Positions 27,585-57,844 of a DNA stretch of 64,000 nt are shown in pieces. Position 1 is the stretch's first letter. Every line of letters begins with the position of its first letter. The notes beneath the pieces were generated by a model that saw only the letters and a list, made by a program, of their open reading frames with translations, did no database searches and was not told the origin of the DNA. Origin of the DNA: Spirochaetales bacterium Spiro_09 (GTDB lineage: Bacteria; Spirochaetota; Spirochaetia; Treponematales; Treponemataceae); NCBI GenBank assembly GCA_001604385.1, contig LVBK01000026.1:1-64000 (forward strand). Direction: 5' to 3'. A program made the translations under genes and the position numbers.

Positions 27585-28148
27585 CTAGCTGTTGACCCGT
27601 TCCTGGTATTCGTTTGTTTCGGTGTTGACCATGATTTTCTCGCCCTGTTTGATGAACAGGGGCACGCGCACGGTGAGCCCTGTTTCGGTGACGACGGGTT
27701 TGGTCGCGCCGGAAACAGTGTCGCCGCGTACGTAGTTTTCGCTTTCGGCAACGACGAAAATCATTTTGGTGGGAATCTTCACATCAATTGACTCTTCTTC
27801 CCAAATGACAATGTCGTATTCGTCACCTTCGCGCAGGTAGAACTTCTTGTCTCCCATGACATCATCGGCGACCATAACCTGTTCGAAGGACTGGGAGTCC
27901 ATGAATACATAGTTCTCTCCGTCATTGTACTGATACTGGCACTTTCGGGTTTCTACAACCGCATCTTCAACGGTATCGGGGGTTTTAATGGTTTGGGTGA
28001 GTACTGAGCCGTCCCGAAGGTTTTTCATCTTTACACGGGCAAAGGCTGCTCCCTTTCCGGGATTGACAAATTCGCGTTCAACGACGAGGTAAGGGGTTCC
28101 CTTAATCAGAAGGACTGTGCCCTTTCCGATATCTCCGCCTCTAATCAT
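27585..28148 (-). CDS. efp: Translation elongation factor P
   Basis: EF-P of 187 residues. It binds the ribosome and relieves stalling at consecutive prolines. The KOW domain is at the N-terminus, followed by two OB folds. The modified tip Lys32 lies in NPGKGAAF, the sequence that EpmA beta-lysylates in other bacteria. The C-terminus GLTVRVPLFIKQGEKI is typical. AGGAG is seven bases before the ATG. The neighbouring gene encodes the likely modifying enzyme EpmA on the same strand, so modification by beta-lysine is expected. Confidence 0.97.
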   Translation of the reverse strand: MIRGGDIGKGTVLLIKGTPYLVVEREFVNPGKGAAFARVKMKNLRDGSVLTQTIKTPDTVEDAVVETRKCQYQYNDGENYVFMDSQSFEQVMVADDVMGDKKFYLREGDEYDIVIWEEESIDVKIPTKMIFVVAESENYVRGDTVSGATKPVVTETGLTVRVPLFIKQGEKIMVNTETNEYQERVNS

Positions 28149-28297: not shown

Positions 28298-29299
28298 TCA
28301 CAGCCTGTCCGTCAGTGGAAATGGAAGTACCGCATCGATTGTCTTTTTTCCGGCCAGACGCATAATAAGCCGGTCAATCCCGGCGGCGACACCCGAACAG
28401 GGGGGCATACGTGCGCACACCGCGCCGAAATTCTCGATGACCCGGTGAGGTACCAGGGCGGTTGTGTCCTTGAGCGACTGTTCTTCGCTCATGTAGCGGT
28501 TGACGGCTTCTGCGTTCCGTTCTTCGCTGTAACAGTTTGCTATTTCAACGCCGCCCATATACAATTCCCATCGATCCTTCGTCTTCCATCCGGTTCCCCT
28601 TTCTGAGGCAAGGCAGGGAACCCGGGCAGGATAATCGCACAGGAAAACCGCATCAAAGGACGAGAGCCAGGGTTCAACCGTATGAACCAGAAGAAGCTCA
28701 TACAGATCATCCCAGGCCCAGCTCTCATAGTCACAGTGGTTCCCCAGACCGAGGCGCTCGGCATGGTATGCAAGATCCCGGCTTTCGGGACAGGAGGACA
28801 GGGGAAAACCGGCAGCCTGGGCAAAGGCTTCGTCCATGGTAATTTCTGTGAAAGAAACCGGGACACTCCGCGCACCGCTTACTGTCGTGCACAAGCGGGT
28901 AATAAGCTCGCAGGTGAGCGTAAGGGAGGCGCGGTAGTCAAAACCGATGGTATAGTATTCAAGCATGGTAAATTCCGGGCTGTGAATGTTTCCGGTTGAT
29001 TCGACATTCCGGTAGCATTTTGACAGTTGAAAAAGCGACACCCCATGATCTGCAATGATCCGTTTGAGGTAGACTTCAGGCGAGGGGACGAGATAGAGCT
29101 CCCTGTCGGCGTCGCTATCTGACCGGGAGGCGCTCCATGCGGGGCGCAGATAGGAGGTTTTGAACACCTCAAGACAGGTTTCCGGAATCAGGCTGGATGC
29201 GAGGGCGGGTGTGTCGGTTTCCAGGTATCCCCGTTCGTGAAAAAAAGCCCTGATTTCACGCAAACAATCTGAGCGGAAGGTTAACATTTCCAGATCCAT
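28298..29299 (-). CDS. epmA: EF-P lysine ligase EpmA (PoxA/GenX type)
   Basis: Class II lysyl-tRNA synthetase paralogue of 333 residues that attaches (R)-beta-lysine to EF-P. It keeps the catalytic core: the motif 2 region KCYRNVESTGNIHSPEFTML, the motif 3 region GVAAGIDRLIMRLAG and GVEIANCY. It lacks the N-terminal anticodon-binding domain, which distinguishes it from LysS. ATG 29299 is chosen. TAATAT is seven bases upstream, without a ribosome-binding site. The 2,3-aminomutase partner EpmB is not in this window. Two GC-rich hairpins lie in 28149-28297, the 150-base gap before efp, where I see no gene. Confidence 0.88.
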   Translation of the reverse strand: MDLEMLTFRSDCLREIRAFFHERGYLETDTPALASSLIPETCLEVFKTSYLRPAWSASRSDSDADRELYLVPSPEVYLKRIIADHGVSLFQLSKCYRNVESTGNIHSPEFTMLEYYTIGFDYRASLTLTCELITRLCTTVSGARSVPVSFTEITMDEAFAQAAGFPLSSCPESRDLAYHAERLGLGNHCDYESWAWDDLYELLLVHTVEPWLSSFDAVFLCDYPARVPCLASERGTGWKTKDRWELYMGGVEIANCYSEERNAEAVNRYMSEEQSLKDTTALVPHRVIENFGAVCARMPPCSGVAAGIDRLIMRLAGKKTIDAVLPFPLTDRL

Positions 29300-29401
29300 A
29301 ATCAGTATATTATCATACAGAAACCGGGAAAAACTACCGCCTGTCCACAGGTGTGGCGGACTTGACAGTTCAGCCGGTTTCCAGGCCTCAAGGAGGTTTA
29401 T

Positions 29402-30292
29402 ATGAGCGTGCATAATAATGATGACGATCTACGTTCCCGGCTTTCGCCCATGCAGTGGCATGTGACCCGGGAAAACGGAACCGAACCCCCGTTTGCGAAT
29501 GAATACTGGAATACTGCCGAAGACGGTCTGTATCTGGATATTATCAGCGGTGAGCTGTTATTTACCTCGGACGACAAGTTTCAGTCTTCCTGTGGCTGGC
29601 CAAGTTTTACCCGTCCTGCCCGGGAATCGGCTGTTCTGGAGAAGACTGATTATTCCCATAATATGCAACGAACCGAGGTGCGCGCATCTCGTTCCGATTC
29701 TCATCTGGGTCATGTGTTCGATGACGGCCCGCTGCCCGGTGGCCTGCGGTACTGTATAAACTCTGCCGCCCTGCGTTTTGTGCCGGCGTCCCGATCGGTT
29801 GCCTACCTCGCGGCCGGGTGTTTTTGGGGTACAGAGGCATATTTTCGCGCTCTTGCCGGCGTGCTTGACGTGACGGCAGGGTATATGGGCGGTACGGTGG
29901 AAGCACCCACATACGAACAGGTGTGTTCGGGAACCACCGGACATGCGGAAACTGTTCGCGTTCGCTTCGATCCGGAACGCATAAGCTATCGCGACATATT
30001 GCGTCATTTTTTCAGGATGCACGATCCGACATCGCTTGACCGGCAGGGCGGCGATGTTGGCACCCAGTATCGCTCGGCGATTTTTTGTGTTGATGACGGA
30101 CAGCGTGAAGTGTCAACGAATCTTGTGCGCGAACTTGAGTCGGCAGGCCGGTATGCCGATCCGGTTGTGACGGAAATTGCGAGAAGCGCGGTCTTTTATC
30201 CTGCAGAGGGGTATCACCAGCGTTACCTTGAACAGCATCCCGGCGGTTACTGTCATGTGAACCTTTCACTCGCGAACCGTCCGTTGGATTGA
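29402..30292 (+). CDS. Fused methionine sulfoxide reductase MsrB-MsrA
   Basis: Bifunctional repair enzyme of 296 residues reducing both stereoisomers of oxidised methionine. The N-terminal part is MsrB, with catalytic Cys118 in [11 protein letters not shown] and another Cys in SSCGWPSF. The C-terminal part is MsrA, with catalytic Cys140 in GCFWG and the family stretch [24 protein letters not shown]. The B-A order is less common than A-B. No signal peptide is seen, so it acts in the cytoplasm. GGAGG precedes the ATG and TTGACA near 29363 is a candidate -35. Confidence 0.93.
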
Positions 30293-33063: not shown

Positions 33064-33564
33064 TTACTGTTTGACGTACTCGCCAAGGTAGCCGAAGTAC
33101 CCGTTTGCGACGGTGTATTCGTCCCTGGCTTCCGCAAGCGTCGGCAGCCCGTTATTGATCGGGTCTGTATAATCGGCCGAGCTTGCCGCTCCTGCTTCCA
33201 CACCAGCTGATGAAAGATTAGCCCAGTACACCGTGTAAAAGTAGTTTTCCGTCTTTCCCCAGCTTCCCCCGTCGGTAATTTGAATGTGTATGTAGCCTTC
33301 CTCCGCGCTGAAGTTGGGGCTATTGACGATTATTCCCGAAAAACTGATGGCTTTCTCCGCGTTGTCGTACTGTATGAAGAGCCACTGGTCATCGGAGTGT
33401 TTGATCTCGAATCCGTCGCCCCAGGATGACTTCCAGTAACCGACAAGATTCGCGGCGGATGCATCTTCAGGCAATAATTGTTCGCAGGAGAATGCCGTCA
33501 ATGACAGCACGAGGAGCGCGATGAGCGCGATGAGCGCAGCCAGACGGGTAGCGGTGAATTTCAT
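33064..33564 (-). CDS. Lipoprotein of unknown function, controlled by a cobalamin riboswitch
   Basis: No family recognised. Of the 166 residues, the signal peptide ends in LTAFSC with Cys27 as the probable lipidated residue, so the mature protein of about 140 residues is membrane anchored and extracytoplasmic. It has aromatic-rich, likely beta strands (YWKSSWGDGFEIKHSDDQWLFIQYD) and a C-terminal YFGYLGEYVKQ. It lies directly behind the riboswitch and before the receptor gene, which suggests a role as a cobalamin-capture accessory, perhaps analogous to BtuG of Bacteroides. No sequence similarity to BtuG is claimed. AAGGA lies upstream of ATG 33564. Confidence 0.85.
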   Translation of the reverse strand: MKFTATRLAALIALIALLVLSLTAFSCEQLLPEDASAANLVGYWKSSWGDGFEIKHSDDQWLFIQYDNAEKAISFSGIIVNSPNFSAEEGYIHIQITDGGSWGKTENYFYTVYWANLSSAGVEAGAASSADYTDPINNGLPTLAEARDEYTVANGYFGYLGEYVKQ

Positions 33565-33617
33565 GAAATACGTTCCTTTTTTCCGTTCCTGATCCTCGAG
33601 GTACGGAATAGTGCAAG

Positions 33618-33803
33618 CGGTGTGTATACCAAAGTCTCCTGGCTCCGGGGCGTGCGGCGGGTATGCCGGTTTCCTTTTCCGTGCAGCCTTCCCGCACCCG
33701 CGCGACGCGCAGCCATGCAGTGGCAGTCATGACGGAATTGTTCCCTCTTACAGTTACGGGCTAGCGGAGGATTCACACCTCGCTTCCTTTGAAATATACC
33801 GGC
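33618..33803 (-). promoter_or_regulatory. Cobalamin (adenosylcobalamin-class) riboswitch
   Basis: Read on the minus strand, the region contains an unusual GAGGTGTGAATCCTC stem, CCCGTAACTGTAAG, a GCCACTGCATGG element, CGGGAAGGC and the conserved B12 box GAGCCAGGAGACTTTGG at 33629-33645. These occur in the order of the cobalamin riboswitch core. A TTCCGT/ACGGAA hairpin between the aptamer and the lipoprotein start could be the expression platform, acting on translation. Edges are approximate. Confidence 0.88.
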
Positions 33804-55110: not shown

Positions 55111-56148
55111 ATGTCACAGTTATTGGTGCCGGCATCGTACAAGCCGTTTCTTACTGTCAAGGAAACCGAACAGGCAATTATCAGAATAAAGGAATTTTTT
55201 CAGCTTGCGCTTTCTACCGAACTCAATCTGACCAGGGTTACCGCTCCGCTTTTTGTGGAAAAAGGGAAGGGCCTCAATGATGATCTGAACGGGGTCGAGC
55301 GGCCCGTGCAGTTTCCGGTCAAGGATATGAATGAGCAACAACTTGAAATTGTTCACTCGCTTGCGAAATGGAAGCGGGTAAAGGTAACCGAACTTGGACT
55401 GAAAAAGGGTTTCGGCATTTACACCGACATGAACGCAATCCGGGCTGACGAAGAACTGGACAATATTCACTCTCTCTATGTTGATCAGTGGGATTGGGAA
55501 ATGGCTATGTCGGAGAATGATCGAACCATCGATTTTCTTACATCGGTTGTACGCAAAATTTATGGTGTTCTCAAGCGTACCGAATTTTTTGTGTATGACA
55601 ATTATCCTGAAATCGAACCCTCTCTGCCCGAAGATATAACCTTCATTCACGCGGAAACCCTTTTGCGGGACTATCCGGCTCTTAGCCCCAAGGAACGCGA
55701 GCACGAGGTGGCCCGAAAGTACGGAGCGGTATTTATCATTGGCATTGGATATCCCCTGGCCGACGGTAATCTGCACGATGGCCGCGCGCCTGATTATGAT
55801 GACTGGATAACAGAGACCGGTAACGGATTTCGGGGCCTTAACGGAGACCTCCTGGTGTGGAATTCTGTGCTTGGCCAGGCTCTCGAGCTTTCTTCAATGG
55901 GTATCCGGGTGAGCCCTGAAACCCTGGTTGAACAGCTTGCCTTCCGCGCCTGTCCTGAACGGGCGTCTCTTTATTTCCACAAAAAACTTCTCGGCGGCGA
56001 GCTTTCTCAAACCTGCGGCGGCGGTATCGGTCAGTCCCGGCTGTGTATGTTTTTCCTGAAAAAAGCGCATGTCGGCGAAACACAGGTTTCTGTATGGCCT
56101 GACGACATGCGTGCTGCCTGCGCAAAAGCGGGCATTACGCTCCTGTAA
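55111..56148 (+). CDS. asnA: Aspartate--ammonia ligase
   Basis: Ammonia-dependent asparagine synthetase of 345 residues, class II aminoacyl-tRNA synthetase fold. Characteristic segments are VTAPLFVEKGKGLNDDLNGVERPV, GIYTDMNAIRADEELDNIHSLYVDQWDWE and SQTCGGGIGQSRLCMFFLKKAHVGE. AAGGGG is before the ATG. A radical SAM gene begins seven bases after the stop. Confidence 0.97.
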   Translation: MSQLLVPASYKPFLTVKETEQAIIRIKEFFQLALSTELNLTRVTAPLFVEKGKGLNDDLNGVERPVQFPVKDMNEQQLEIVHSLAKWKRVKVTELGLKKGFGIYTDMNAIRADEELDNIHSLYVDQWDWEMAMSENDRTIDFLTSVVRKIYGVLKRTEFFVYDNYPEIEPSLPEDITFIHAETLLRDYPALSPKEREHEVARKYGAVFIIGIGYPLADGNLHDGRAPDYDDWITETGNGFRGLNGDLLVWNSVLGQALELSSMGIRVSPETLVEQLAFRACPERASLYFHKKLLGGELSQTCGGGIGQSRLCMFFLKKAHVGETQVSVWPDDMRAACAKAGITLL

Positions 56149-56155
56149 CGCGTCA

Positions 56156-57844
56156 GTGAAAGCATCCAATACAGCCCTTGCCATTGTTGTTTCTCTTCAG
56201 GTTCATTCATCCTGGCAGGCATTGCCCCTGGGCGCTGGATGCATCGCCTCTGCACTTCGCGCGGATGCCGCACTATCCGGTCGATGTGAGGTTGTCCTTC
56301 TAGATCTTTCTCTTGAACAGGACGATTTTATCGCGGCGGACACTGATGCGCGCGCGCGCCTGGTTGTTGACCGTGTCCGCTCTCTTTCTTCGGGCCGACA
56401 CTGTTTTGTGGCCTTTTCAGTGTATGTATGGAACCGCACCATTTTCGAACGCTCTGCGACTATTCTTCGCCAGGAAATTCCCGAAGCGGTAATTTGCGCT
56501 GGCGGACCTGAAATAACCGCTCTTGCCGCTGGTTCCCCTACTGCCTTCGAGTATCTTGTTCTCGGCGAGGGTGAATCCTCCACGCGCGCCCTGCTTCGAT
56601 CCTGGCTTGACGGCACCCTTGTAAAACCTTTGCGAAACTCCGGCATCAGAAGTCCCGCGGAGCCTCTTGCTGAACTGCCCTCGCCCTGGCTGGATGGAAC
56701 TCTTGACAATACCGAAGCCGTTCTCCTTCATCGGGGAGCCCTCTGGGAATTGTCGCGGGGGTGTCCGTATTCCTGTTCATATTGCTACGAGTCGAAAGGA
56801 GACAAAAAGGTCAGAACCTATCCGCTTGAGCGTCTCGAAAGTGAGCTTGAGTACTTTATGAAAAAGGGAATCGAACGGGTTTTTGTGCTCGATCCGACGT
56901 ATAATGCGAACAAAAAACGCGCGCTCGAGATACTGAAGCTCATTAAACAAAAGGCGCTCAACATTCATTTCAATTTTGAGGTACGCGCTGAATTGCTTGA
57001 CCGTGAACTGGTTGCTGCCTTCTCCGAAATTCCCTGTTCACTGCAGATTGGTCTGCAGTCATCCAATCCACAGGCCCTCGCGGCAGTCGGACGACCTTCG
57101 GACCTGAAACAGTTTTCCAAAAAAATCGCATTGCTCAATGAATCTGGAGTCGTATTCGGTCTGGATGTCATGTACGGACTACCCTGCGATACTCTTGCCA
57201 CGTTCAGGGACAGTCTCGACTATGCGCTTTCTCTGTATCCCAATAATCTTGAGCTCTTTCGCTTATCGGTACTTCCGGGAACCGCTCTCTACGAGGACGC
57301 AGCGCGTCTTTCGCTTGTGTTCAACCCCGAACCGCCGTATCAGGTAGTCTCGCTGCCCGCTTTTTCTGCGGAAGATCTTGCGCGTGCCGAAGCCCTCGCC
57401 CGTGCCTGCGACATTTTTTACACGCAGGGAAGAGCGGTTACCTGGTTTTTAAGCGCTCTCGCTCCGCTCAAACAACGGCCTTCACGGTTCTTGACCGAGT
57501 TTGATCGCTTCTTGCAGGACAGAAAAAAGTATCCTCGAAATGGTGTTGTTCTTTCCCACCAGGAAGCCGAAGACTTGCAACTTGCTTTTCTTGATCAGGC
57601 GTACCACCAGAAAAAAATAGCCCACCTGCTTCCTGCCCTTTACGATATTGTCCGGTTTAATGGCGCCCTGACACGGGCTCTTGCGGAGGGAGAGGAAAGC
57701 ACGCTCGATTTGTCATACCACGGAGAGGATCTTCTCGGTCCCGAGTCTATGGATGTGGTGTGGTTTACCGAAAATGCGTGTATGGAACACTGTACGGTGC
57801 GCGTGTTTCCGACTGCGGACGGCCCCGATTTCGAGATACTGTAA
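56156..57844 (+). CDS. B12-binding domain radical SAM protein of unknown substrate
   Basis: Protein of 562 residues. The N-terminal 160 residues form a cobalamin-binding-type domain (SLQVHSSWQALPLGAGCIASAL, CAGGPEITA), without a clear DxHxxG. The radical SAM cluster motif is CPYSCSYC (Cys203, 207, 210). The C-terminal region is of the kind found in broad B12-radical SAM families, and the reaction is not predictable. The start is GTG at 56156, seven bases after asnA, and the ribosome-binding site is weak. The longer frame upstream lies inside asnA. Confidence 0.82.
   Translation: MKASNTALAIVVSLQVHSSWQALPLGAGCIASALRADAALSGRCEVVLLDLSLEQDDFIAADTDARARLVVDRVRSLSSGRHCFVAFSVYVWNRTIFERSATILRQEIPEAVICAGGPEITALAAGSPTAFEYLVLGEGESSTRALLRSWLDGTLVKPLRNSGIRSPAEPLAELPSPWLDGTLDNTEAVLLHRGALWELSRGCPYSCSYCYESKGDKKVRTYPLERLESELEYFMKKGIERVFVLDPTYNANKKRALEILKLIKQKALNIHFNFEVRAELLDRELVAAFSEIPCSLQIGLQSSNPQALAAVGRPSDLKQFSKKIALLNESGVVFGLDVMYGLPCDTLATFRDSLDYALSLYPNNLELFRLSVLPGTALYEDAARLSLVFNPEPPYQVVSLPAFSAEDLARAEALARACDIFYTQGRAVTWFLSALAPLKQRPSRFLTEFDRFLQDRKKYPRNGVVLSHQEAEDLQLAFLDQAYHQKKIAHLLPALYDIVRFNGALTRALAEGEESTLDLSYHGEDLLGPESMDVVWFTENACMEHCTVRVFPTADGPDFEIL

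Follow-up and report, generated by a model that had tools for sequence, protein, structure and literature searches.

A small lipoprotein of no recognised family, encoded between a cobalamin riboswitch and a BtuB-like TonB-dependent receptor, probably helps spirochaetes to catch vitamin B12 at the cell surface. The gene lies in a 64,000-nucleotide stretch of DNA from Spirochaetales bacterium Spiro_09 (hereafter, the window), where the riboswitch, the gene order and the lipobox are all directly observed, and the family to which it belongs is linked across the phylum to B12 riboswitches and BtuB-like receptors.

A riboswitch-led operon with a lipoprotein and a receptor

All elements of the locus are on the minus strand, in the order cobalamin riboswitch, lipoprotein gene, TonB receptor and polysaccharide deacetylase; positions 33064-33803 cover the lipoprotein gene and the riboswitch, and the receptor gene is located just beyond them.

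33789-33632, minus strand: cobalamin riboswitch aptamer (RF00174), first element of the operon; cmscan 61.8 bits, gathering score 31.5, E 7.1e-13
33581..33608, minus strand: short hairpin between the aptamer and the ribosome-binding site, in the predicted fold
33564-33064, minus strand: lipoprotein gene (ORF), 166 amino acids, conserved family
33067..33486, minus strand: mature domain of the lipoprotein, Cys27-Gln166; eight-stranded beta barrel with a C-terminal helix in the AlphaFold2 model
33048-31162, minus strand: BtuB-like TonB-dependent receptor, 628 amino acids (PF07715 and PF00593; best NCBIfam model TIGR01779)
31114-30314, minus strand: polysaccharide deacetylase gene (PF01522), after the receptor

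A preliminary description of this DNA had named a cobalamin riboswitch with a clear B12 box, a lipoprotein of no known family and a BtuB-like receptor, and all three assignments held up. The riboswitch far exceeds the RF00174 gathering score (61.8 vs 31.5 bits), and its alignment includes the sequence GCCACUG, which we take to be the B12 box. The lipoprotein ORF starts 67 bases past the aptamer match, and a TtcA-like gene in divergent orientation (33879) lies about 90 bases from the start of the riboswitch-led unit. The deacetylase gene at the other end of the unit is possibly a co-transcribed passenger of the receptor. The leader between the aptamer and the start codon folds no better than its shuffled versions (z 1.38), the minus strand of the leader region has no terminator-like site, and a search for a sigma-70-like promoter at the riboswitch-led unit found none. 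Given the leader folding and the outcome of the promoter search, we make no claim regarding the mode of action of the riboswitch; the short hairpin in the predicted fold might conceivably form part of an expression platform.

A lipoprotein family without a name

The lipobox of the window lipoprotein, as read from the sequence, ends at Cys27 (TAFS-C). Searches with the protein found no match in Pfam or NCBIfam (E <= 1), and none among PDB sequences (E <= 5). Protein searches identified homologues in 11 of 59 genomes, including the window's own, with nine of these among the 12 genomes of the genus. A profile built from 11 family members (A1), in which the 10 other loci are 26-52% identical to the window protein, matched 79 of 392 genomes sampled from all over the Spirochaetota at E <= 0.01, many of the weak matches covering only the signal-peptide end, and 54 of the 392 with strong matches (E <= 1.6e-7). 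A pattern scan of the genome_contigs collection, which reaches near relatives only, yielded 10 confirmed loci, all 10 from spirochaetes or Treponema; the pattern came from a smaller alignment (A2), the 11-row A1 having given no conserved stretch. Even with a threshold of E <= 5, no two of the 11 members share a Pfam or NCBIfam family, and the best match of any single member is to a putative lipoprotein model (TIGR04134, E 0.0019).

Under a loose script rule, a lipobox-type Cys is present in 59 of 60 members, the exception (L037) being truncated by a contig end; in some rows (L006, L017), the rule chose a Cys slightly upstream of a likelier one. The lipobox by itself does not locate the lipoprotein on the outer face. 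In an alignment of 61 domains, conservation is highest, in the window numbering, at Ala146, Cys27, Gly90, Trp44 and Thr151 (90-98%), followed by the stretch Asn154-Gly-Tyr-Phe157 (72-82%). The mature domains, compared in 57 members, have a median length of 146 residues and a mostly acidic character, with net charges from -20 to +5 and a median of -9, and Tyr, Trp and Phe make up 14% of their residues; no recognisable corrinoid-binding motif was found in the lipoprotein. One member (L089 114-1091) carries the domain twice in a single 325-amino-acid frame, ahead of a receptor. No lipoprotein was detected in three genomes of the same genus that carry a B12 riboswitch (G003, G007 and G010; 77, 72 and 95% complete, respectively).

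Linkage to B12 riboswitches

In the first 11 loci, including the window, RF00174 scores above gathering in nine; of the other two, one starts at a contig end (L007) and one has a match of 24.6 bits (L008). For a larger sample, RF00174 matches were listed under strict filters in 64 genomes, 61 of which supplied 70 lipoprotein places for comparison. The 70 places comprise 63 of the 108 profile match rows and seven of the 11 protein-search rows: 45 profile rows weaker than E 1.6e-7, many of them confined to the signal-peptide end, were dropped, and four protein-search rows represented the same places as profile rows. At 45 of the 70 places (43 of the 61 genomes), the 3 kb upstream of the gene contain an RF00174 match on its strand, with a score above gathering at 32 of the 70; at 42 of the 45 places, the distance between riboswitch and gene is 43 to 242 bases. 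By chance, about 0.05 of the 70 places would be expected to show this arrangement (81 RF00174 matches in about 192 Mb).

The strict scan left 25 of the 70 places without a riboswitch. A permissive scan of 17 loci revealed an AdoCbl-II riboswitch (RF01689, 39.0 bits, above gathering) leading the lipoprotein gene in L036 (2104-2181), as well as a cobalamin match of 28.9 bits in L033 and others, very weak, in L039 and L041; it found none upstream of the gene in L022, L027, L028, L030, L031, L032 and L035. In L020, the riboswitch is located beyond the scanned stretch, and in genome G006, both the riboswitch (C82:192-362, minus strand) and the gene (C137:95) are at contig ends, a separation consistent with a broken assembly.

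The genomes contain 81 riboswitch matches in all, 38 of which are not ahead of a lipoprotein gene. In four places, the riboswitch is followed by a TonB receptor and the lipoprotein is absent:

L092, 3072-5168: riboswitch-led receptor, lipoprotein-free
L093, 2457-4493: riboswitch-led receptor, lipoprotein-free
L095, 2423-3223: riboswitch-led receptor, lipoprotein-free
L106, 5808-7850: riboswitch-led receptor, lipoprotein-free

The remaining riboswitches of this kind that were inspected lead into other genes or contig ends. The genome that holds L095 (G009) has a lipoprotein elsewhere. The three lipoprotein-free genomes of the genus, together with the four lipoprotein-free receptors, imply that the partner is dispensable.

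The adjoining receptor resembles BtuB

With a profile grown from the window receptor, a TonB receptor was detected in 42 of 45 distinct loci, of which 35 came from 40 hand-picked regions, a choice favouring strong matches and matches without a riboswitch, and 10 from the pattern scan. These are loci L042 to L091, minus L043, L046, L050 and L051 (repeats of L082, L085, L083 and L084, respectively), and minus L062, a flank without a lipoprotein gene. In 40 of the 45 loci, the receptor gene follows the lipoprotein gene on the same strand. The gap is at most 400 bases in 28 loci and 0.6 to 1.6 kb in another 11, most of which have a further small gene in between; in the remaining one, L085, a long overlapping frame misled the script, and the Met of the receptor itself comes after the lipoprotein. 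L053 has the receptor upstream, as the first gene of the operon, and in L066 the two genes converge. The profile detected no receptor in L069, L077 or L086; the contig of L086 ends 82 bases past the gene. For the most part, across the 45 loci, a single copy of the lipoprotein adjoins a single receptor.

The pairing of the two genes behind B12 riboswitches in other spirochaetes, which the preliminary description had raised, is thus borne out, with a riboswitch at 45 of 70 places and a receptor in 42 of 45 loci. Homologues outside this context, which the same description had set against its own proposal, do exist, as a minority: L069 and L077, with no receptor detected, and the copies with no riboswitch detected.

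Two other lipoprotein-like families are encoded between the lipoprotein and the receptor in some loci. The first (f30), again small, has the sequence ...AWYGGG... near its end and no Pfam match above cut-off in the two members scanned (L070 and L073); arrays of up to four paralogues occur in the f30 loci, with four copies beside one receptor in L075.

L070, 7402-7965: family f30
L071, 8898-9464: family f30
L073, 8558-9121: family f30
L075, 9600-10193: family f30

The second (f19) is a different gene of 277-308 codons (L061 4603-5529, L079 6169-7002), with no Pfam match.

The window receptor contains the Plug (PF07715) and TonB_dep_Rec_b-barrel (PF00593) domains, at 62.7 and 70 bits against cut-offs of 23.9 and 27. 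Its best NCBIfam model is that of the vitamin B12 receptor (TIGR01779), at 89.8 bits, far under the cut-off of 599.7; because the cut-off was not reached, although the model ranked first, we call the receptor BtuB-like. The same model was the best for seven of seven lipoprotein-adjacent receptors (window, L048, L052, L055, L070, L083 and L061), all of them under its cut-off and L055 weakly (E 1e-7). Among PDB sequences, the window receptor matched 11 at E <= 0.001; BtuB1 (8blw) was on top, and eight of the 11 bear the name of a vitamin B12 receptor or transporter. When 20 receptors were combined in a profile, the top matches, near full length and at E 1e-56 to 2e-48, were 8bmx, 8blw, 8p98 and 8p97, ahead of the colicin I receptor and other BtuB entries. 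The four top structures were all deposited with the study of the Bacteroides BtuBG complexes, where 8BLW is given as BtuB1G1, 8P97 and 8P98 as BtuB3G3, and 8BMX as BtuG2 (PMC10404256); we infer that the TonB-linked receptor chain under 8bmx is BtuB2. The best match of the lipoprotein-free receptor in L092 is a siderophore model.

In phylogenetic trees of the receptors, the lipoprotein-linked rows cluster strongly, with two label changes against a mean of 7.6 after shuffling in the rebuilt tree. Because the 43 lipoprotein-linked receptors require two label changes in both the first and the rebuilt tree, we do not claim that they form a single clade. Three long ORFs labelled "other" in the first tree are probably not receptors, one having a caspase domain and two being its tree neighbours; the rebuilt tree leaves these out, along with the long "other" ORF L117 and the partial L095.

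Transport genes and probable B12 use in the host

In some relatives, the remainder of the import pathway is encoded at the same locus. Behind the pair, L048 has BtuF-, BtuC- and BtuD-like genes (Peripla_BP_2, FecCD and ABC, respectively) and L054 has BtuF- and BtuC-like ones; a FecCD permease is present in L056 and L058. The window genome has a single FecCD permease set, BtuFCD-like, elsewhere (C2, L112), no second RF00174 match in the strict scan, and two plug-domain proteins, of which only the window's receptor matches the BtuB models. It also has four B12-binding domain matches. CbiD, the sole biosynthetic family searched, was found neither in this genome, which is 88% complete, nor in any of the 13 genomes tested, while a control search was positive in 6 of 14; by its gene content, this fits a host that would use B12 and not make the corrin ring. 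A 591-amino-acid ORF in the window (56069-57844) has a weak B12-binding domain and a CxxxCxxC motif; this is probably a radical SAM protein and possibly a user of the imported cofactor.

A predicted small beta barrel

AlphaFold2 gave confident models both for the window domain (mean pLDDT 89.6, pTM 0.84) and for a distant member, L091 (pLDDT 86.6, pTM 0.80), and both have eight strands with a helix preceding the last strand. In Foldseek searches, neither model had a match at E <= 0.001. The best matches of the L091 model are two lipocalin-like lipoproteins, 4gzv from Bacteroides ovatus (E 0.013) and Tp0751 from Treponema pallidum (5jk2), with probability 0.98 to 1.00, TM 0.46 to 0.63 and 7-13% identity; we know of no B12 context for either. 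Those of the window model are avidins, a designed barrel, 4gzv and 5jk2, at E 0.05 and worse. A search against viral structures gave nothing useful, the best match being an avidin-family protein (E 0.058). The strand count and the best matches agree with lipocalin- or calycin-like barrels, though none of the matches reaches E <= 0.001. With this reserve, the models weakly suggest a small, lipocalin-like beta barrel; no enzyme was recognised in the predicted fold, which the preliminary description had proposed to examine as a check on an uptake role.

Comparison with known B12 lipoproteins

Lipoprotein-assisted uptake through BtuB is, as a kind of system, already known: in Bacteroides, a lipoprotein binds B12 outside the cell and passes it to BtuB (PMC10404256, PMC6143338). 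As with BtuG and BtuB, which form a "pedal bin", the lipoprotein gene described here adjoins that of a BtuB-like receptor in a B12-riboswitch locus (PMC6143338, PMC10404256), and it is the structures of the BtuBG study that the spirochaete receptor profile matches best. However, BtuG is a seven-bladed beta-propeller (PMC6143338), whereas the spirochaete lipoprotein is predicted to be a single barrel of 140 residues, and there is no BtuG among the Foldseek matches listed (best 50 of 456 and best 50 of 425).

BtuJ, of the DUF4465 family (IPR027828), is likewise a B12-linked lipoprotein; it binds the corrin via an aromatic "halo" (PMC12751083), and some Spirochaetota are reported to have homologues of DUF4465, a separate B12-binding family (PMC13398666). 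We rejected the assignment of the spirochaete lipoprotein to DUF4465/BtuJ, which matched neither the window protein (E <= 1) nor any of the 11 members (E <= 5). BtuJ is an augmented jelly roll, whereas the spirochaete model comes closest to lipocalin-like barrels. BtuH, another B12-binding lipoprotein of Bacteroides B12 loci (PMC8941943), binds by a C-terminal globular domain that is said to be without a known structural homologue; BtuH is absent from the PDB sequence matches at E <= 5 and from the Foldseek matches listed (best 50 of 456 and best 50 of 425). The Bacteroides thetaiotaomicron BtuK, a B12-operon lipoprotein of which BtuK1 binds cobalamin (PMC12751083), can be set beside the spirochaete family by description only. 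Among the literature matches listed, the excerpts contain no description of the lipoprotein family or of a B12-binding partner of a spirochaete BtuB. Thus far, then, what appears to be new, as judged from these excerpts, is the protein family, its predicted fold and the phylum.

Proposed role and alternative explanations

We consider it fairly probable that the lipoprotein is anchored in the outer membrane and binds corrinoids as the partner of the adjoining BtuB-like receptor. When internal cobalamin is low, the riboswitch would permit expression of the operon; the lipocalin-like barrel would bind cobalamin or another cobamide, presumably at the outer face, and would hand it to the receptor, which would import it with TonB energy, after which BtuFCD would move the corrinoid over the inner membrane. 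A role as a partner is favoured by the single copy per receptor that most of the 45 loci show, and one as a ligand binder by the f30 arrays of up to four copies and the two-domain member in L089. Of the surface corrinoid-capture component that the preliminary description had suggested, the role in corrinoid uptake is well supported, whereas exposure on the outside and direct corrinoid binding are steps that we infer, together with cobalamin repression, receptor contact and hand-over.

An unlikely, although not negligible, alternative is an accessory role without corrinoid binding, in which the lipoprotein, facing the periplasm or located in the outer leaflet, would serve the assembly, stability or gating of the BtuB-like barrel. 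The linkage to the receptor (42 of 45 loci) is indeed tighter than that to a detected riboswitch (45 of 70 places), and the operon in L053 has the receptor first. The BtuB of E. coli is not known to need such a lipoprotein partner. Nevertheless, the four-copy array beside one receptor in L075 and the two-domain protein in L089 fit ligand capture better than a structural subunit, and small lipocalin-like barrels usually bind ligands.

It is also rather improbable that the lipoprotein, while binding corrinoids, works as a free-standing scavenger or selector, for example, of incomplete corrinoids or stripped cobamides, and not as a lid or partner of the receptor. BtuJ and BtuH are thought to work in this manner in Bacteroides (PMC12751083, PMC8941943, PMC10404256), and the paralogue arrays in the f30 loci would fit such a function, but in most of the 45 loci one copy adjoins one receptor, as does BtuG in 106 of 109 btuB operons (PMC6143338).

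That the gene is under B12 control for some other reason, such as a B12-independent function needed under scarcity, with the receptor importing something else, seems very improbable: although the receptors score under the cut-off of the curated B12 receptor model, TIGR01779 ranks first for seven of seven, BtuB structures top the ranking of the receptor profile, and btuFCD-like genes are found at the same locus in some relatives. A spurious ORF or a chance association, for which nothing but the absence of database matches speaks, has a negligible probability and, as regards the ORF, is ruled out by conservation of the protein sequence (10 other loci at 26-52% identity to the window protein, with an invariant Cys), next to a confident predicted fold and a linkage far beyond chance.

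According to PMC10404256, lipoprotein-capped TonB-dependent transporters, including BtuBG, are seemingly exclusive to Bacteroidetes. The broader proposition that spirochaetes, phylum-wide, employ lipoprotein-assisted BtuB uptake with an unrelated, lipocalin-like lid or loading subunit in the place of BtuG is one that we advance tentatively, as somewhat short of an even call. If true, this would be a second, unrelated solution in another diderm phylum, such that lipoprotein capture of small molecules at TonB receptors would have evolved more than once, and a nameless family present in 79 of 392 spirochaete genomes (E <= 0.01) would gain a functional assignment.

Other genes in the vicinity

Apart from the riboswitch-led unit, the window includes what we presume to be an elongation factor P-like gene (27585-28148) and, adjoining it, a class II tRNA-synthetase-like gene (28298-29413). 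A tRNA-synthetase gene (PF00152) follows the receptor in L042. The other plug-domain protein of the window genome adjoins a caspase-domain (Peptidase_C14) protein (L113 3976-6237), and long ORFs resembling the latter are also found in L114 and L116.
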